Positions 1,397 to 64,000 of a stretch of DNA of 64,000 nt are shown here, piece by piece. Under the pieces are notes generated by a model, which made no database searches, was not told the origin of the DNA, and saw only the letters and a list, made by a program, of their open reading frames with translations. Location: NCBI GenBank assembly GCA_944323845.1, contig CALUUA010000004.1, forward strand, positions 62,001-126,000, read 5' to 3'. Positions within the stretch are counted from its first letter, which is position 1. The number at the start of each line of letters is the position of its first letter. A program made the position numbers and the translations under genes. This DNA comes from an uncultured Bacteroidales bacterium. GTDB lineage: Bacteria > Bacteroidota > Bacteroidia > Bacteroidales > UBA932.

Positions 1397-4300
1397 ATGA
1401 AAAAGAACCCGATCATACTTGCAACTCTCGCCGTAATTGCCGGCCTGCTCGCACCTGTCTGCGGGGCGGACGCTCTGGAACGCATGTATCTGGAGCAGAT
1501 TTCGGTCGCCGAGGGGATGCCTCATACTGATGTGAATGCCATAGCCGGGGATCCTGAAGGCTTCCTCTGGTTCGGGACGTTTTCCGGACTGTGCAGGTAT
1601 GACGGCAGGAGGATGGAAGTGTTCAATGTCACTAATTCGATGCTGGAAAGCTCCAGAATAAAGTCCCTCCATGTTTCTGATGACGGACTTCTGTATGTCG
1701 GCACTGAGACCGGAGGCCTTTCTGTATATGATACTGCCGGGGACCGCTTTCTGATGACAGTGCCCGTCCCTCTGAACAACGTGAACAGGATTTTCAGCTA
1801 TAAGGGAAAGATATGCCTGTGTACCGACGCCGGAGTCTCGTTCGTGGAATTTTCAGACGGGAACTATGTCATGGAGTCCTACAGCCTCGGTTCCGGAGTC
1901 ATGGGCGGCTGTCCTATCCCGGGGAAAGGTCTGGCTTTATGTACACCTTCCGGACTGTTCCTTGCCTCGGAAAGCACTGGGGGGGGGTATTCATTCCGCA
2001 AGGTCCTGCCCGGGATTTACTGCTGCGAGGCTGTCCTTCCGGACGGACCGGACGAATTGCTGCTGGCAGGATATGACGGCTGCTTCAAGGTAGACACGCG
2101 GGACTGGTCCGCCGAAAAGTTAGACGGGCGGGAAGCCTTGTCCCTGTATAAGGCGGCCGACGGGAAAATATGGGTCGGAACCAGAAAGGACGGCATGCTG
2201 TGCTATGACAAGGAGCTGAATCTCCTGCATGACTCGGGCCCGGACAGGAAATACGGATTCAACAGCTGCGACATCACCTCTTTCTATATGGACGGCTCGT
2301 CCGTGCTGTGGATCGGCACCATAGGCAACGGCTGCTACAAGAAAATCCGCCATACCGATGACTTCCGTCTTTATTCCATTACCGGCTCCGCCGGCAATGA
2401 CCATATAATATGCATGTATGCGGACAGCCGGGACAGGCTGTGGATATCCACCAGAGACGGCGCCCTGTACGTCATGTGCGGGGAACAGGTCACACGTTTG
2501 GATGAAAGATCATTGTCGGTCTTCGGCGGGATGCCGGTTTCGTTCATATACGAGGATGACTTAGGCTCCATCTGGTTCGGGGCGTGGACACACGGCCCTC
2601 ATGTCATTTCCGGCAAGAATCTGGACCGGGCTGTCGCCGGTCTTCCGTTCGGCTTTTCCGGATTCCCCGGACACCCGCTGCTGAATGCCGCCAGCATATA
2701 TATGGCCGATACGGACGATTCCGGGAACATCTGGTTCAGTACGAATTACGGCGTATTCAGATATGAGGGCGGTTCCGACAGGATTTCCGGCCGGCCGGAC
2801 AGGTACGCCGGGAAGTGGACCTGCTTTACGAGCGATCCTGCCGACTCCTCATCTCTGACGGACAATTTCTGTACGGATATCTTCGCCGAGACATATGACG
2901 GCCGCCGGTATGTGTGGGTGGGCTCCCGTCTGGGTCTTACCAGATTCATCTGCTCGTCGGAAGGCGATGTGCAGTCCATATCCAGAATCTATCCCTCCAG
3001 AAGCGAGAACGGCCTGTCCGGCGATTACATATCTGTTATACACAGGGACAGGGAAGATTCACTCTGGATAGCGACCCTCGGAGGCGGACTTAACAAGCTG
3101 TCCGGAGACAGGAGCGCGCCGGAACTGCATTTCAGACACTATGACAGCGAAGATTTCCCGTTCGGCACCTGCGAATTCGAGTCCCTGCAGGAAGATTCCT
3201 CCGGCGTCTTCTGGATAGGAAGCGCCAGAGGGCTGGTCAGATTCGATCCCGGAAGCGGACAGGTGAAGACTTTCTCGAAGAAAGACGGGCTTCAGAGCGA
3301 TGTTTTCAAGATATGGGCCTCCACAGCATTCTCTGACGGCAGGATGGCCTTCGGCGGTCCTGAAGGTTTCAACATTTTCGACCCGTCCGGAATCAGCCGG
3401 AACGAGATACCGCCCGTCACCGTGCTGACAGGGCTGAGGATAAACGGCAGGGACGTGATGCCCGGGGATACGGTCGGGGGAAAGGTCGTCTTGTCCGGAC
3501 CACTGAGACACAGCAGGTCGATAACACTGCCCCACGACTGCAACAGCCTGGCATTCCGTTTCGCCGCCCTTCATTACGAGCATCCGGAAATGAACTCTTT
3601 CCGCTTCCGTCTGGAAGGTCTGGACAACATCTGGCACTATTCGTCCGACTCGAACGCTTCCGCCTCTTACCTGAACCTGAAACCGGGCAGATACGCTTTC
3701 ACTGTCTACGGAGCGAACAGCGACGGCATCTGGGGAACCGTCCCTGCAAGACTGGCTGTCACCATCCGTCCGCCTTTGTGGAAGAGTACTGCCGCCTGCA
3801 TCATTTATCTCCTGTCTGCCATGGGGCTGCTGTTCTTCCTGAAGACCGTCATCCAGCGTCGGAACAGACAGCATTACGAACTGGAAATGGAGCGCAAGCT
3901 CCGCATGGAAGAAGCCCAGCGCAACGAAAACGAAATGAAATTCCATACGGACTTCCTCCACGAAATCAAGACCCCACTCACCCTGATTTCCGCCCCTGTG
4001 GATGAGCTGCTCGAAAACCACAGCCTCGGGAAAACTACCAGAGAAAGGCTGCAACTGGTGCGCAGGAGTGCCATGATACTCCAGAAACTTCTCGACACAG
4101 TCACGGATTTCCGTAAATACGACAACGGAAAATCCCGCCTTCATGTCACGGAAGTGGATTTCTGCCGCTTTGTCGACGAGTCGGTCCGGCTTTTCGTCCC
4201 GTATATGAAAAACCGCGGCATATCCTTCTCGATTGAGCTTCCTAAGACTCCTGTCATGCTTTTCATCGACAGGATGGAAATGGAAAAAGTCCTGATGAAC

Positions 4301-5518
4301 CTGATGTCGAACGCCATAAGATACTCTCCCGAGACCGGAGGCAGGATCAGTGTGTCCGTCACGACGGACAATTCTGCCGGCTCAGCTCCGGTATTGCTGT
4401 CGGTCAGCAATACCGGTATGGGCATACTGCCCGAAGACATCGACAGGATTTTCGACAGATTCCGTCAGGGTTCTAACAATACTTCGAGGAAAGGCATGGG
4501 AATAGGTCTGGCAATATCGAAACACGTGGTGGAACTTCACGGAGGCGAAATATACGCCGAATCCGTGCCCGGGCAGAAGACGGTCTTCCATGTACGCCTG
4601 CGCACAGGCTGTTCGCATTTCCGGGAGGAAGACATAGACAGGAACGTCCGGGACAGTGACGGCATTTCCGGCTATGAAGACATATCGGACGTCATGGCAG
4701 GCCTGGCATCGAGACTGCCGCAGGCGTCCGACCGCACATATACGGTTCTGGTGGCGGACGACAGTCCAGACCTGCGCAGCTACCTCGGACAGCTGCTTTC
4801 GCTCAGATACAATGTCATAATCGCGTCGGCCGGCAGGGAGGCGTATGAAAAAGCCATCGCAGATCAGCCCGATGTCATCATTTCCGATGTGATAATGCCG
4901 GGAATGGACGGTATGGAACTTTGCTCGGCCATAAAGAAGAATCCTGACACTTCCCACATACCTGTAATCCTCCTTTCCGCGAGAAGTCTTCCTGTGGACA
5001 AGGTGGAAGGATTCGACGCCTTGGCCGATGAATACATGACAAAACCCTTCCAGTCCGAGGTCCTGCTGTCGCGTATAGCTAACCTTATCCGCCAGAGAGA
5101 GAGCATGAGGGATGCTTTCAGGAAAAACATAGTGCTGGAACCGTCTTCCGTCTCCGGAACCACATCGGACGAGAGATTCATGAAGAATGTCATTTCGGTC
5201 ATAGAGGAGCATGTGTCGGAACCGGAATTCGGAGTGGACGAGCTTTGCGAGGAAATCGGGGTCTCCCGCCCTGCCCTTTACCGGAAGATAAAATCCCTTA
5301 CCGGTCTTTCCGCCATCAGGTTCCTGCGGAGCATCCGTCTCAAGCGGGCTGCCCAACTCCTCGCATCGGATGAAAACATGTCTGTTTCATCGGTAATGTA
5401 TGCCACGGGATTCAGTAACATGTCCTACTTTTCCAGAATATTTTTCGACGAATTCCATGTCCTGCCGAAAGACTGGTACGGCCGGAGCCATGCCTCCGAC
5501 GGCTCGCTGCCCGGTTGA
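1397..5518 (+). CDS. Hybrid two-component system sensor/regulator (HTCS) of the PUL
   Basis: This 1373-residue protein has the complete HTCS order. A signal peptide (1-24) is followed by a periplasmic beta-propeller of Reg_prop repeats (about 30-690; many LW-x-G-T-x-x-G strands), a Y_Y_Y domain (about 731-790) and one membrane helix (about 798-818). Then come a HisKA domain with phospho-acceptor His855 (LHEIKTPLT), an ATPase domain with N box (NAIRYSPE) and glycine box (GMGIGLAIS), a receiver domain (about 1117-1235) with phospho-acceptor Asp1164 (SDVIMPGMDG), and an AraC-type DNA-binding domain (about 1266-1365). Such proteins bind a breakdown product of the target glycan in the periplasm and switch on the neighbouring susCD genes directly. 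The 19-bp motif at 5563 and 12185 is its likely binding site, which is an inference. Confidence 0.95.
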   Translation: MKKNPIILATLAVIAGLLAPVCGADALERMYLEQISVAEGMPHTDVNAIAGDPEGFLWFGTFSGLCRYDGRRMEVFNVTNSMLESSRIKSLHVSDDGLLYVGTETGGLSVYDTAGDRFLMTVPVPLNNVNRIFSYKGKICLCTDAGVSFVEFSDGNYVMESYSLGSGVMGGCPIPGKGLALCTPSGLFLASESTGGGYSFRKVLPGIYCCEAVLPDGPDELLLAGYDGCFKVDTRDWSAEKLDGREALSLYKAADGKIWVGTRKDGMLCYDKELNLLHDSGPDRKYGFNSCDITSFYMDGSSVLWIGTIGNGCYKKIRHTDDFRLYSITGSAGNDHIICMYADSRDRLWISTRDGALYVMCGEQVTRLDERSLSVFGGMPVSFIYEDDLGSIWFGAWTHGPHVISGKNLDRAVAGLPFGFSGFPGHPLLNAASIYMADTDDSGNIWFSTNYGVFRYEGGSDRISGRPDRYAGKWTCFTSDPADSSSLTDNFCTDIFAETYDGRRYVWVGSRLGLTRFICSSEGDVQSISRIYPSRSENGLSGDYISVIHRDREDSLWIATLGGGLNKLSGDRSAPELHFRHYDSEDFPFGTCEFESLQEDSSGVFWIGSARGLVRFDPGSGQVKTFSKKDGLQSDVFKIWASTAFSDGRMAFGGPEGFNIFDPSGISRNEIPPVTVLTGLRINGRDVMPGDTVGGKVVLSGPLRHSRSITLPHDCNSLAFRFAALHYEHPEMNSFRFRLEGLDNIWHYSSDSNASASYLNLKPGRYAFTVYGANSDGIWGTVPARLAVTIRPPLWKSTAACIIYLLSAMGLLFFLKTVIQRRNRQHYELEMERKLRMEEAQRNENEMKFHTDFLHEIKTPLTLISAPVDELLENHSLGKTTRERLQLVRRSAMILQKLLDTVTDFRKYDNGKSRLHVTEVDFCRFVDESVRLFVPYMKNRGISFSIELPKTPVMLFIDRMEMEKVLMNLMSNAIRYSPETGGRISVSVTTDNSAGSAPVLLSVSNTGMGILPEDIDRIFDRFRQGSNNTSRKGMGIGLAISKHVVELHGGEIYAESVPGQKTVFHVRLRTGCSHFREEDIDRNVRDSDGISGYEDISDVMAGLASRLPQASDRTYTVLVADDSPDLRSYLGQLLSLRYNVIIASAGREAYEKAIADQPDVIISDVIMPGMDGMELCSAIKKNPDTSHIPVILLSARSLPVDKVEGFDALADEYMTKPFQSEVLLSRIANLIRQRESMRDAFRKNIVLEPSSVSGTTSDERFMKNVISVIEEHVSEPEFGVDELCEEIGVSRPALYRKIKSLTGLSAIRFLRSIRLKRAAQLLASDENMSVSSVMYATGFSNMSYFSRIFFDEFHVLPKDWYGRSHASDGSLPG

Positions 5519-5562
5519 ATCCCGACGCCTGTACGGACGTGTTTTTCCGAAAGTGCAAAAAT

Positions 5563-5609
5563 CTGAACGATTTGTGCCGGTAGGCCATGGCGGCCAATGT
5601 TTATATTTG
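5563..5609 (+). promoter_or_regulatory. Candidate HTCS operator plus -7 box before the three-module enzyme
   Basis: The sequence CTGAACGATTTGTGCCGGT (5563-5581) is followed 39 bp after its first base by TATATTTG (5602-5609), a perfect -7 box. The same arrangement with CTGAACGATTCGTGACGGT recurs at 12185. There is no TTG at the normal -33 distance, as expected for a promoter that depends on an activator. The start codon of the gene is 60 bp further on. Confidence 0.65.
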
Positions 5610-5668
5610 CTCGAACCACGTCAGGCGGGGCCGGAAACGCCCGCCGGAACACTGAACTGTCGAAGAAA

Positions 5669-8600
5669 ATGAAAAAATCCCATGCCGCAAGGCTTTTCGG
5701 CCTTCTTTTCCTGATTCCTCTGCTTTCATGCAGGGGCGAGCATATGGTGGAAATCAATGCTGATCCTTCCGTGAAGGATTATACTCCCGTGGTAAGGCAG
5801 ATCCTTGAACAGCATCCGCGGGGTCATGTCACCCTGAAATTCTCTCCCGGCACATTCCGTTTCTTCCCTGAAGAAGCATTCGGCGAGTACATGACCGTCT
5901 CGAACAACGACAACGGCATGAAACGGATCATATTCAGGCTTAAAGGCATGAAGAATGTCACCGTAGAAGGCGATTCTTCCGATTTCGTGTTCCACGGAGC
6001 CGTTATCCCGTTCGCCGTGACGGACTCACGCCATGTCAGGATATCCGGAATATCCATAGACTATGATGCCCCGTTCACCCTTGAAGGCACGGTGACGGCC
6101 ACGGACAAGCAGGCGGGGACATTCACTCTGAAAATAGACCCGGCAAACAAATACAGGATAATGGATGAACGCTTTTATTTCCTCGGCTACGGCTGGGAGT
6201 CGCGGCTGGGTGAAAACGTCGTCTTCGACCCTGAAACGAAATCCCCTTACTACAATGCTGCCCGCTACCAGCATTGGCCTGTCCACCAGTTTTCTGCCCG
6301 TGAAGTAGGGGAAGGTCTGGTGGAGTTCGGGAATGTGTATGCTGCCGAGCTTCCTCCCGTGGGCAGCGTATGGGTGGACAAGGGTGTGCATCCGCAGGAC
6401 AGATATTGTTCCGCCATTGTCCTGAGCGACAGCGGGGACATAACAGTGGAGGATGTCCATATCTATCACAGCGGGGCAATGTCGCTTGTGGCCCAATATT
6501 GCGAGGATGTGACCGTAAGGAGGTTCGACACCTCGCGCAGGCCCGGCTCTTCGCGGATGGTCACCTCGTCGGCTGACGCGACGCATTTCGTGGACTGTTC
6601 CGGAGATATCCTGATCGAGGACTGCCGCTTCGAAAGCATGCTTGATGACGCCGTAAACATACACGGTGTCTACATGAAGCTGGAGAAAGTGCTGGGCCGG
6701 AGGGAATTTGCCGCATCATTCGGCCACAGGCAGCAGACCGGGAACCGTTTTGCCGACAAGGGAGACGTCATCCTGTTCATGGACAGGTCTACGATGCAGC
6801 CTGTGGGGACTGGCAGGGTCAGGGAAATCAGCCGCGTAAACGAGAACCGGTACGTCTTCCGGACTGATTTTCCTGTAGAAACTCTGCAGGATTCCGGAGA
6901 ATATGCGATAGAAAATATTTCGCGCGGAGCTTCTGCCGTCATCAGGAACTGCTCTGTAAAATACAACAGGGCGCGGAGCCTCCTTCTTTCCACTCCCGGA
7001 CAAGTCCTTGTGGAGGATTGTTCTTTCGCTTCCATGATGGCGGGGATAGTGATCTGCGGAGATGCCAATTTCTGGTTCGAGTCGGGCAGGACGCGCGATA
7101 TAGTGATAAGGAACTGCGAGTTTCAGGATCTGGCGCGCGGCGGAAACGGCCCGCAGGCTGTCCTGCAGATTGACCCCATGATTCCGGAAGAGGCGCGGAC
7201 GACGGACTTCTTCTATCACGGTCATATTTCATTCACGGGGAACACTGTAAGGACATTCGATTCGCAGATAATCTATGCCCGGAGTGTCGCGGATCTGGAT
7301 ATCAGGGATAACGTGTTCGTGGATTCCGGCACGTGGAAGCCGCTTTACGGCGATCAGGCTGCGATAGATGTCGAGTATTGCGGGAACGTCACGATAAGCG
7401 GAAATGATTTCTCGGGATGGAAAAAAGACGCCTGTATAAGCGTGCATGATTGTATCGGAGCCGATATCCATGCTCCGGGGATAAAGGTTACGGGCTGGAC
7501 GAGGCTGCCCCGGACCTCCGGTTCGGAGGCAATGGAAGATGCCATTGCCGCCTACGTCAGCGAGGCGGCAGCCGACAGTATCCCTATTCATTCCCTGATG
7601 GTCGTACAGAACGGAAGCGTCACAGCGGAGGCGTATCTCGACGGATGGACAGCCGCTGATCCTCATCGGATGTGGTCTGTGAGCAAGACTTTCACTTCCC
7701 TCGCGGTGGGTTATGCAGTGGAAGAAGGTCTGCTGGCCCTTGATGAGAAGATAGCGGCTATCTTTCCCGAAGAAGCGGCTGCGGTGCTGGACACGATGGA
7801 AAACGCGCTGTTCCGGAAACACCTCATGGATGCGGACGTGCGGGACTTTCTGGTCATGGCCACAGGGCAGACGGAAGATCCCACCTATGTGCTCGGCGCC
7901 CGATATGCCCCATACGGGCTGACCGGGATAGACAGTCTCGATGTCTTTATGGAAAGACATGGCGGAAGTCTGATTGCGGACTTTTTCTCTGTGCCGTTCA
8001 CAGCTGAACCGGGAACGGTGCGGTGCTATAACAGCATAGCCACCTATATTCTTTCGGCGGCCGTGCAGAAAGTCTCCGGAGAAAAGCTCGTCGATTACCT
8101 CTATCCCCGCCTTTTCGAGCCTCTCGGCATAGAGAAACCGCGTTGGGATGAGGTGCAGGGCATAAACTGCGGGGGTTGGGGGCTGTGGCTGAAGCCTGAA
8201 GACATGGCCCGGGCAGGTCAGGCCATGCTCTGCGGCGGACGTTATGCAGGCCGGCAGGTGATTCCTGAGAGGTATCTGGAAGAGGCGGCGAAGAGTTTCT
8301 TCACCTGGGACTTGCCGACGGGAAAAGAATCCGATACGGACAGGTACCATGCCACAGGATATGGTTATCAGATATGGCGGAACCCCGATTCCTTCTATGC
8401 CGCAGGCATGTGGGGACAGTTCATCTATGTGTTTCCGGAGCTGGATGCGGTAGTTGTGGCTACGGCAGATGTCAGGGATGACGACAGCCGGGAGTCCGCC
8501 CTGATATGGAAGCACATCGTTCCTGTGTTGAAAGCGGAGGCCGGGGCCGGACAGCGGCCTTTGCGCTGGGTCCTTTCAGGCCCCCATTCCATAACATGGA

Positions 8601-60819: not shown

Positions 60820-61815
60820 ATGGAAATCAAAGCAGCTGACGTAATGAAACTGCGTCAAATGACAGGCGCCGGAATGATGGACTGCAAGAAGGCACTTGTG
60901 GAAGCCAATGGCGATTATGCCCGGGCACAGGAGATTATCCGTGAGAAAGGCAAGCTCGTGGCAGCCAAAAGGGCTGACAGGGAGACTTCGGAAGGTGCTG
61001 CCATCGCTAAGGTGGACGGCGGCAAGGCTATCCTTGTGGCTCTCGGCTGTGAGACTGACTTCGTTGCCAAGAACGAAGAGTTCCAGACACTTGCCAATGC
61101 CATAGCTGATGCAGCGCTTGCACAGTTCCCTGCAGATGCCCAGGCGCTCAATGCCTGCAAGCTCGCAGACGGCAGGACAGTGGAGGCAGCCGTTACGGAA
61201 CAGACCGGAAAGACCGGCGAGAAGCATTCGATAGCTTACTATGCATGTCTTGAGGCTCCGTACATCTCATCTTATATCCACAAGATCAACGGGAAACTTG
61301 CTGCCCTCGTGGCATTCAGCAAGGAAGTCCCTGCCGAAGCCGGCAAAGGCATCGCAATGCAGGTCGCTTCCATGAATCCGGTGGCTGTAAACAAGGAGTC
61401 CGTGCCTCAGAGTGTCATTGACAATGAACTTGCAGTGGCAGTCGAGAAGACTAAGGAAGAGCTTGTGAAGAAAGCGGTGAACTCCGCTCTCGAAAAGGCC
61501 GGAATCAATCCGGCACATGTCGACAGCGAGGATCATATCGAGTCGAATACAGCCAAGGGGTGGCTTACTCCAGAACAGGCTGACAAGGCCCGCGAGATCA
61601 TCAAGACCGTTTCCGCCGAGAAGTCTGCAAATCTTCCTGAGGCCATGATCAAGAATATCGCGAACGGCCGTCTGAACAAGTTCTTCAAGGAGAACACCCT
61701 CGAGGAACAGGAGTATCAGATGGGCGACGGAAAGGTATCCGTGAAGGATTATCTTGCCGGCGTAGACAAGGACGCGAAGATCATCGCATTCAAGAGATTC
61801 TCTCTTAACGACTAA
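60820..61815 (+). CDS. tsf: Elongation factor Ts
   Basis: The 331-residue protein has the N-terminal UBA domain ([19 protein letters not shown]), the [12 protein letters not shown] core motif that contacts EF-Tu, and two dimerisation/core repeats. It exchanges GDP for GTP on EF-Tu. It is somewhat longer than the E. coli protein (283), with extra residues in the core. ATG at 60820 is used; a TTG three codons earlier is less likely. The unit ends at the hairpin from 61849. Confidence 0.97.
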
Positions 61816-61848: not shown

Positions 61849-61887
61849 AAAAATCCGTCAGTGCGTTTGCACTGTCGGATTTTTTTC
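61849..61887 (+). terminator. Terminator of the ribosomal protein operon, overlapping the his promoter
   Basis: AAAAATCCG-T-CAGTGC (61849-61864) pairs with GCACTG-T-CGGATTTTT (from 61869), loop GTTT, one T-T mismatch, then a run of T to 61887. Its loop region supplies the TTTG (-33) of the histidine promoter. Confidence 0.85.
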
Positions 61888-61897
61888 TTTAAATTTG
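61866..61897 (+). promoter_or_regulatory. Promoter of the histidine operon
   Basis: TTTG (61866-61869), 20 nt, TAAATTTG (61890-61897) is a complete consensus. The -33 element lies in the loop of the preceding terminator and the -7 box begins 3 bp after its T run. Transcription would begin near 61904, 13 bp before the leader peptide ATG. Confidence 0.8.
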
Positions 61898-61916
61898 TAG
61901 GAACAACGGATAAAAC

Positions 61917-61970
61917 ATGACACTTCGACTTTCATACAGGCTTCACCACCATCATATTTACGGAATATGA
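61917..61970 (+). CDS. hisL: Histidine operon leader peptide
   Basis: A 17-codon frame, MTLRLSYRLHHHHIYGI, ends in TGA at 61968. Four consecutive His codons (CAC CAC CAT CAT, 61944-61955) lie just downstream of the his promoter and before a terminator and hisG, the classic layout of a leader peptide that senses charged tRNA-His. The start ATG is about 13 nt from the predicted transcription start. Too short for standard gene finders. Confidence 0.85.
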   Translation: MTLRLSYRLHHHHIYGI

Positions 61971-61977
61971 CGGCAGG
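61971..61977 (+). promoter_or_regulatory. Antiterminator segment of the his attenuator
   Basis: CGGCAGG begins right after the leader stop codon. It is identical to the core of the terminator's 3' arm (62027-62033), so it can pair with CTTGCCG (62013-62019) in the 5' arm and block the terminator. A ribosome at the leader stop covers it; one stalled on the His codons leaves it free. Confidence 0.75.
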
Positions 61978-62007
61978 TCTGGCCATGCATTGAAGTATTG
62001 GATTATA

Positions 62008-62043
62008 AAGAGCTTGCCGCAAAGACCGGCAGGCTCTTTTTTT
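62008..62043 (+). terminator. his operon attenuator terminator
   Basis: AAGAGCTTGCCG (62008-62019) pairs with CGGCAGGCTCTT (62027-62038), 12 pairs including one G-T, 7-nt loop, then seven T in a row (62037-62043). It lies 38 bp after the leader stop and 44 bp before the hisG ATG, the right place to end transcription before the structural genes. Confidence 0.88.
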
Positions 62044-62087
62044 ATGCCGGTCTGCAGAGCCCGGTATTTTAAAACGAACTTACTATT

Positions 62088-62939
62088 ATGCTGAGAATTG
62101 CCTTACAGTCCAAAGGACGACTGAACGAGAAAAGCATCGAGCTGCTGCGGGAAGCAGGTATCAGTATCGAAGAAAGCAGTAGGAAACTTCTGTCCAGATC
62201 TTCCAATTTCCCTATGGAAGTACTCTATCTTAGAGATGACGACATTCCGCAGACGGTTTCATGCGGTATTGCCGACATCGGAATTGTCGGTTATAATGAA
62301 GTCATGGAGCGGGCCTATCCCGTAGATGTCCTCAAACATCTGGAGTTCGGGAAATGCCGGCTCTCGCTGGCGATTCCGAAATATATGGAATATGACGGGC
62401 CGGAGTTTTTCAACGGCAAGAGAGTGGCGACTTCGTATCCGGTGATCCTGAAATCCTATTTCGACAGGAAAGGAATTTCATGCGAAATCAGGGAAATCGC
62501 AGGAAGTGTGGAGATTTCCCCGTCCATCGGGTTGGCCGACGGTATTTTCGATATTGTCAGCAGCGGCGGCACGCTGGTCCAGAACGGATTGGCAGAGGTC
62601 GAGACTGTCATGGAGTCGGATGCCGTCCTTATCGGCAGGCCCGGTCTCGACGAGGAGAAAATGCAGACTGTCAGGATTCTGCTGTCCCGATTCACCTCCG
62701 TATTGCGAAGCAGGGGAAAGAAATACATGCTGGTAAATGTCCCGAATGACAAGATAGATGAAGCGTTGAAAATCATCCCTTCGATGAAAAGTCCTACATT
62801 GCTGCCTTTAGCCGATAAGGGCTGGAGTGCCATACATGCAGTGGTGGACGAATCGGAAGTCTGGGACAAGGCGGACAGGCTCAAAAAAATAGGGGCGGAG
62901 GACATCCTCGTCCTGTCAATGGAAAAACTGATCATATGA
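62088..62939 (+). CDS. hisG: ATP phosphoribosyltransferase, long form
   Basis: The 283-residue enzyme has LRIALQSKGRL at the N-terminus, the PRPP-site region GLADGIFDIVSSGGTLVQNGL and a C-terminal ACT-like domain (about 205-283, including MLVNVPNDKIDEALKIIPSMKSPTLLPL) that binds histidine for feedback inhibition. This is the long, hexameric, self-regulated form, which does not need HisZ. It performs the first step of histidine synthesis. Control by the leader attenuator adds a second His-responsive level. It overlaps hisD (ATGA). Confidence 0.97.
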   Translation: MLRIALQSKGRLNEKSIELLREAGISIEESSRKLLSRSSNFPMEVLYLRDDDIPQTVSCGIADIGIVGYNEVMERAYPVDVLKHLEFGKCRLSLAIPKYMEYDGPEFFNGKRVATSYPVILKSYFDRKGISCEIREIAGSVEISPSIGLADGIFDIVSSGGTLVQNGLAEVETVMESDAVLIGRPGLDEEKMQTVRILLSRFTSVLRSRGKKYMLVNVPNDKIDEALKIIPSMKSPTLLPLADKGWSAIHAVVDESEVWDKADRLKKIGAEDILVLSMEKLII

Positions 62940-64000
62940 AAACATACCGATTCCCAGACAAGAAAGACTGGCCGGCCATAGTCGGCCGCCAGAAGGCAGG
63001 CGTGTCCCGGAAAGTCAAGGACATTGTTTCCGGCATTCTGTCAAATGTCCGCGAATACGGAGACAGAAAGGTGCTGGAATATATCAGGACTCTGGACGGT
63101 TTCGATACGGATGCTGCCGGGCTTGCCGTCACTGAAGCGGAACTGGAAGCTGCCGAAACGGAACTTGACAATGACCTTAAAGATGCGGTGAAGGCAGCTG
63201 CCGCTAATATCAGACGTTTCCATGAGGCGCAGAAAACAGGGGAAGTGGTCGTGGAAACAGCCCCCGGCGTAGTATGCAGACAGAAAAATGTGCCCATAGA
63301 CAGTGTCGGCCTTTATATTCCCGGCGGGACGGCCCCGCTTTTCTCTACGGTACTCATGCTTGCAGTTCCGGCTGTCATAGCCGGCTGCAGGAGAATCGTA
63401 CTCTGTACTCCGGCGGGCCCTCGCGGACAGATTTCCCCGGCCATACTCTATTCGGCGAAAATATGCGGGGTCAGGGAGATATACAGGATCGGAGGGGCGG
63501 TCGCCATAGGAGCCATGGCTTACGGGACGGAAACCGTACCGAAGGTGGACAAGATTTTCGGTCCAGGAAATTCGTATGTGACCGAAGCCAAGCAGCAGGT
63601 GTCCCAGGACTGCGCCATAGACATGCCTGCCGGTCCTTCCGAGGTGATGATCATGGCCGATGACAGTGCCAACCCTGCATTCGTGGCTTCCGATTTCCTA
63701 TCACAGCTCGAACACGGGAAAGACAGCCAGGCCATACTCCTGTCCACTTCGGCCTCGCTGGTGGAATCCATGTCGCGCGAACTGGGACTGCAGTACGGCG
63801 CTCTGTCCCGGCAGGCTGTGATAGACTCGTCCATGACCCGGAGTGCTGCAGTCATTCTGGCGACCGAAGACGATATGGCTGATTTTGCGAATTTCTATGC
63901 CCCGGAACATCTTATCATAGCCACACGCGACTATCGCAGGACCGTGGAAAAAATCCGCAACGCAGGCAGCGTCTTCCTCGGGAACTGGTCCACTGAAAGT
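62936..64000 (+). CDS. hisD: Histidinol dehydrogenase, 3' end cut by window
   Basis: 355 codons are visible and the frame is open to the window end; the full enzyme is about 430 residues. Blocks of the family are present: VGLYIPGGTAPLFSTVLM, KVDKIFGPGNSYVTEAK, the zinc/catalytic region DMPAGPSEVMIMAD, SQLEHGKDSQA and the FYAPEHL Glu-His that takes part in catalysis. It catalyses the last two steps of histidine synthesis. It starts inside the hisG stop (ATGA at 62936), thus is translationally coupled. Confidence 0.97.
   Translation, partial: MKTYRFPDKKDWPAIVGRQKAGVSRKVKDIVSGILSNVREYGDRKVLEYIRTLDGFDTDAAGLAVTEAELEAAETELDNDLKDAVKAAAANIRRFHEAQKTGEVVVETAPGVVCRQKNVPIDSVGLYIPGGTAPLFSTVLMLAVPAVIAGCRRIVLCTPAGPRGQISPAILYSAKICGVREIYRIGGAVAIGAMAYGTETVPKVDKIFGPGNSYVTEAKQQVSQDCAIDMPAGPSEVMIMADDSANPAFVASDFLSQLEHGKDSQAILLSTSASLVESMSRELGLQYGALSRQAVIDSSMTRSAAVILATEDDMADFANFYAPEHLIIATRDYRRTVEKIRNAGSVFLGNWSTES

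Follow-up and report, generated by a model that had tools for sequence, protein, structure and literature searches.

A probable ribosome-mediated attenuator of the histidine operon in an uncultured Bacteroidales bacterium, with counterparts at hisG loci across Bacteroidota

According to our analysis of a 64,000-nucleotide stretch of contig CALUUA010000004.1 from an uncultured Bacteroidales bacterium (here called the window), a histidine operon begins near the end of the stretch and is complete in the genome, with the order hisG-D-CB-H-A-F-IE. NCBIfam matches place a hisCB fusion, hisH, hisA, hisF, and hisIE after hisD, the hisC-hisB fusion forming a single 560-aa frame at positions 4230 to 5912 of locus L175. 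Upstream lies tsf (NCBIfam tsf), whose stop codon occupies positions 61813 to 61815 and whose own terminator hairpin, recognized from the sequence, is found at 61849 to 61886. The elements of the putative attenuator span positions 61890 to 62043, ahead of the his operon (Table 1), and the T run lies about 45 nt before the ATG of hisG at 62088.

Table 1. Features of the putative histidine attenuator and of the beginning of the his operon; positions are those of the window
Feature	Position	Strand	Basis
Promoter: TTTG (61866 to 61869), 20-nt spacer, -7 box TAAATTTG (61890 to 61897)	61866 to 61897	+	Sequence
Leader peptide ORF, MTLRLSYRLHHHHIYGI and stop codon, 17 codons	ATG 61917 to TGA 61970	+	Sequence; predicted translation
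Protector hairpin (1:2), core: 61945 to 61957 (His-codon region) with 61965 to 61978	61945 to 61978	+	MFE/ensemble folding, covariation
Segment 2, CGGCAGG, antiterminator 5' arm, adjoining the leader stop codon	61971 to 61977	+	Sequence, pairing comparison across loci
Segment 3, terminator 5' arm	62007 to 62019	+	Sequence, pairing, covariation
Segment 4, terminator 3' arm (62027 to 62039) and T run (62037 to 62043, 7 T)	62027 to 62043	+	Fold, covariation
hisG, ATP phosphoribosyltransferase, first his operon gene	62088 to 62939	+	NCBIfam TIGR00070 and TIGR03455 above cut-off
hisD	62936 to 64000, continues beyond the window end	+	NCBIfam on L175 ORFs

The consensus promoter that the first-pass annotation had described is present in its Bacteroidota form, with TAAATTTG as the -7 box. 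The Bacteroidota -7 consensus is TAnnTTTG; in 90 of 138 relatives a copy lies in the 60 nt that precede the leader ATG (6.4 in shuffles), most commonly about 27 nt upstream of the ATG. Since the box is most often found at this distance, the leader ATG would probably lie only 11 to 15 nt from the transcript end, with transcription predicted to start near 61902 to 61906. The TTTG at 61866 to 61869, which forms the -33 element of this promoter, is located within the loop and stem of the tsf terminator hairpin (61849 to 61886).

The predicted leader peptide carries four consecutive His codons (CAC CAC CAT CAT) at 61944 to 61955, and its length of 17 codons is kept without indels in 14 of the 14 closest leaders. 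Segment 2 follows the fourth His codon at a distance of 16 nt and the first at 27 nt. The 17-codon leader, its four His codons, CGGCAGG right after the stop codon, and the stall distances of 16 to 27 nt are thus all as the first-pass annotation had given them.

We gathered 174 hisG loci from named genomes and from family, order, and phylum samples, of which 170 were usable; these span many families, but some are closely related and a few are duplicates, and they do not amount to 170 independent events. An ORF of at most 40 aa containing three or more His within seven codons was present upstream of hisG at 143 of these loci, whereas the reverse strand gave 8 of 170 and dinucleotide shuffles 2.5%; with at least four His the counts were 112 of 170 against 1 of 170 and 0.18%, respectively. 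Cultured relatives that carry the leader include Prolixibacter bellariivorans and a Lutibacter strain. The leader was found in 48 of 59 order-sample loci, in 16 of 23 family-sample loci, and in 22 of 40 further phylum-sample loci. In this last set it is present at nearly all loci whose HisG shares at least about 41% identity with that of the window, and at none of the 16 with divergent HisG (about 24 to 35% identity); the element therefore follows one HisG lineage. The Flavobacteriaceae loci of the set share the same leader and terminator layout. A hisG match was obtained in only 61 of the 119 genomes sampled from the order and in none of three members of the genus to which the window belongs, from which we conclude that histidine synthesis is often missing close to this genome.

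Most hisG loci devoid of a His-rich leader are also devoid of a terminator, so that in most cases the two have been lost jointly. An intact terminator unaccompanied by a His-rich frame, the pattern that the first-pass annotation had named as adverse to its proposal, is rare among relatives. Seven such cases (L020, L030, L042, L044, L066, L163, and L165) mostly reflect leaders below threshold, cut contigs, or degenerate frames, and a terminator with no clear His frame is seen at L073, L098, and L170.

Between leader and hisG we found an intrinsic terminator, and at the leader stop codon an antiterminator arm. The terminator stem has 13 bp including one G-U (12 to 13 by A-U counting) and a loop at 62020 to 62026, in agreement with the 12 bp and seven T of the first-pass annotation, and the transcript from 61907 to 62046 folds at z = -4.9 relative to its shuffles. 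In an alignment of 14 close relatives, 96% of the cells of the terminator stem are paired, with covariation. The last 7 nt of segment 3 (CTTGCCG, 62013 to 62019) pair with segment 2 as well, and CGGCAGG with CTTGCCG is the arm pair of the window's clade. The arm pairs of different lineages include GGCAGG with CTTGCC, CAAGCGAGG with CCCGTTTG, and GGTAAGC with GCTTACC; in many Flavobacteriaceae the partner of CCCGTTTGAG is CTCAAGCGAGG, which overlaps the final codons of the leader, and a rumen group has AAGGGTAGG with GCCTGCTCTT. Because lineages use different arm sequences, both arms have changed together.

In each of 125 distinct loci with leader and terminator, we searched for the 12-nt stretch that pairs best with the terminator 5' arm. 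At about 107 of the 125 loci, by a hand count from the partner table, it lies between -22 and +12 nt relative to the leader stop codon, where position alone would place about 45%. This location of the best partner sustains the earlier proposal that segment 2 competes with the terminator 3' arm for the 5' arm. Furthermore, the arm of each locus pairs with its own stop-codon segment at a mean of -9.7 kcal/mol, as opposed to -6.95 kcal/mol for arms from unrelated loci (Wilcoxon p of about 1e-15) and -4.03 kcal/mol with the adjacent upstream stretch (p of about 3e-18), p-values that take no account of shared ancestry. The swaps were restricted to arms having no 5-mer in common; swapping among all loci, tried as well, was a weak control and was replaced, the GCTTGCC core being common to Bacteroidales. 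In the 14-sequence alignment the antiterminator helix is 96% filled and almost invariant, and therefore its covariation comes only from the comparison between lineages.

The protector hairpin lies over the regulatory codons, and its outer stem extends to about 61929 to 61996. When the pre-terminator transcripts of 13 distinct close relatives are folded, nearly all form a long hairpin with the His codons on one side and the stop codon and segment 2 on the other, and the outer stem is often present among them. In the 14-sequence alignment the protector has 24 pairs, with 84% of cells paired and seven pairs changed on both sides; its covariation score was reached by none of 500 shuffles, and slid versions are 30 to 44% filled. 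Pre-terminator transcripts of the 125 loci average z = -2.2, and segment 2 is paired with upstream sequence in 94 of these loci. The first-pass annotation had regarded the design as simpler than that of E. coli, a duplicated segment taking over from the chain of four arms. This does not hold, as arm 1 is present and shows compensatory changes in relatives, and any competition between 2:3 and 3:4 needs arm 4 to be duplicated at position 2. Since the arm 1 hairpin is found and conserved, the arrangement is an ordinary four-arm chain. The comparison of related hisG upstream regions that the first-pass annotation had proposed thus bears out the conserved His codons at the 143 loci and the covariation of protector and terminator, while the antiterminator is nearly invariant in the close clade.

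Sequence and comparison together establish the parts, their order, their spacing, and their conservation. On these grounds we hold with high confidence that a classical 1:2:3:4 ribosome-mediated transcription attenuator, responding to charged His-tRNA, controls the his operon, and the comparison between loci leaves attenuation of transcription by a translating ribosome as the very likely mode of control. With scarce His-tRNA, the ribosome would stall on the four His codons and open the protector (1:2), freeing CGGCAGG (2) to pair with the terminator 5' arm (3), so that RNA polymerase would enter hisG. With ample His-tRNA, the ribosome at the stop codon would cover segment 2 and the terminator (3:4) would form. 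In the absence of translation, the protector would sequester segment 2, which predicts termination as the default outcome. From this scheme we infer termination in vivo and its response to histidine.

A footprint model, the energies of which are those of a static fold without kinetics, agrees with the stall-on, stop-off logic of the first-pass annotation. Its mean antiterminator probability, P(2:3), is about 1.0 while the A site holds one of the His codons (codons 10 to 13) and 0.0 at codons 17 and 18, the last codon and the stop, with the changeover between codons 14 and 17 and the same outcome at each downstream edge from 9 to 16 nt. With no ribosome, the window favors the protector (P(1:2) = 0.89, P(2:3) = 0.15), and the untranslated leader is therefore predicted to terminate. 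Some relatives form the antiterminator in the no-ribosome model (mean 0.33, maximum 1.0), and default termination is not uniform.

An alternative is that the His-rich leader acts mainly on translation of hisG or on RNA stability, with the hairpin at 62007 to 62039 only partly a terminator. In its favor, a His-rich leader with no recognizable T-run terminator is retained at four loci (L125, L128, L142, and L151), which are possibly a translational or Rho-linked variant; two of them, L125 and L128, form a small hairpin at the stop codon, which reads ATTCCTCTTGAGAGGAAT in L125. However, a strong hairpin with a T run after it, about 45 nt ahead of hisG, is present in the window and in most relatives, the 5' arm of this hairpin is matched to the stop-codon segment, and the structures are explained with no pairing to the hisG start, which makes this alternative very improbable.

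A second alternative is that the terminator is driven by a riboswitch that senses a tRNA or a ligand, for instance a T-box, with the His run incidental; the T-box layout likewise places a switchable terminator before an amino-acid operon. Yet the only Rfam match at gathering score in the window is a distant tRNA gene, neither the T-box nor RF00514 (His_leader) was found in the leader at gathering score or at E ≤ 10, and the His-rich frame is kept across very different RNA sequences, so that we give such a riboswitch almost no credence. The best weak Rfam match of the leader is Thr_leader, at 25.4 bits against a cut-off of 55. Just as implausible is that the hairpin is the plain terminator of the tsf unit, which does end just upstream at 61815, and that the His-rich ORF arose by chance, since tsf owns a hairpin of its own with the promoter box after it and His-rich leaders recur at 143 of 170 hisG loci as against 2.5% by chance.

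The ribosome-mediated attenuator, instead, has in common with the enterobacterial his leader (RF00514) a His-rich peptide, alternative antiterminator and terminator, hisG as the first gene, and the stall-on logic, and differs from it in the arm sequences and in the number of His codons, which is four in the window and seven in the E. coli his leader.

In the same genome, the region upstream of pheA (contig C5, L196:1311-1467) contains the box TATATTTG and a Phe/Tyr-rich leader, MSTRFSAYGYFYFYFHKR, followed by a strong terminator (TTGGAGCTGTC/GACAGCTCCAA and a T run) directly before pheA, and is likely a second attenuator, for phenylalanine. A simple scan of the flanks of the homoserine dehydrogenase and HMGL-like (leuA-type) loci gave no leader-plus-terminator pattern. 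The TrpE-type (chorismate-binding) family has no match in the whole genome, and since this genome is rated 100% complete, it suggests an organism that does not synthesize tryptophan.

Naville and Gautheret (2010; PMC2965389) stated that, before their Bacillus case, leader-peptide systems were previously seen only in Proteobacteria and Actinobacteria. A later report (PMC9413887), in which his attenuators are attributed to Proteobacteria, describes Firmicutes candidates in the B. cereus group, Peptostreptococcaceae, and Erysipelotrichales. These share with the present element three to five consecutive His codons, a terminator with an antiterminator, and no match to RF00514, but they belong to another phylum and to few lineages, whereas in Bacteroidota most sampled close-type hisG loci are concerned. 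For Flavobacterium psychrophilum, PMC9723704 presents strong clues of leader-peptide attenuation before amino-acid operons and a structured element 5' of hisG that is kept in Flavobacteriaceae and has no Rfam match. That element concerns the same gene in the same phylum and likewise belongs to no Rfam family; it is named in the available part of that source with no mechanism given there, and the window differs in being from Bacteroidales and in having unrelated arms. The first-pass annotation had placed most well-studied cases outside Bacteroidota, which stands insofar as we found no well-studied case in this phylum but must be qualified for Flavobacteriaceae, where hisG leaders and leader-peptide attenuation had been noted before (PMC9723704). 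We found no report of a Bacteroidales his attenuator in the open-access literature, to which the search was confined. A comparative survey of attenuation reportedly published by Lopatovskaya et al. in 2010 could include Bacteroidetes cases.

The kind of mechanism is therefore already known, while the breadth of the hisG attenuator in Bacteroidota seems undocumented. We lean towards the view that the main Bacteroidota lineage inherited a four-arm his attenuator from its ancestor and that hisG is still mostly controlled in this way, with the function kept while the RNA diverged and no Rfam family covers it. Histidine attenuators are usually described from Proteobacteria, with scattered cases in Firmicutes; if the element is present at most close-type hisG genes of Bacteroidota, it would rank as a standard form of regulation in a phylum of major importance in gut and marine habitats. 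The anatomy and the ortholog set reported here provide a basis for a new RNA family. Because the switch works only with a ribosome closely behind RNA polymerase, the hisG leader would also serve as a natural assay of transcription-translation coupling in Bacteroidota, which make little use of Shine-Dalgarno sites. If our reading is true, early translation would match the pace of RNA polymerase on a leader that begins about 11 to 15 nt from the transcript end.
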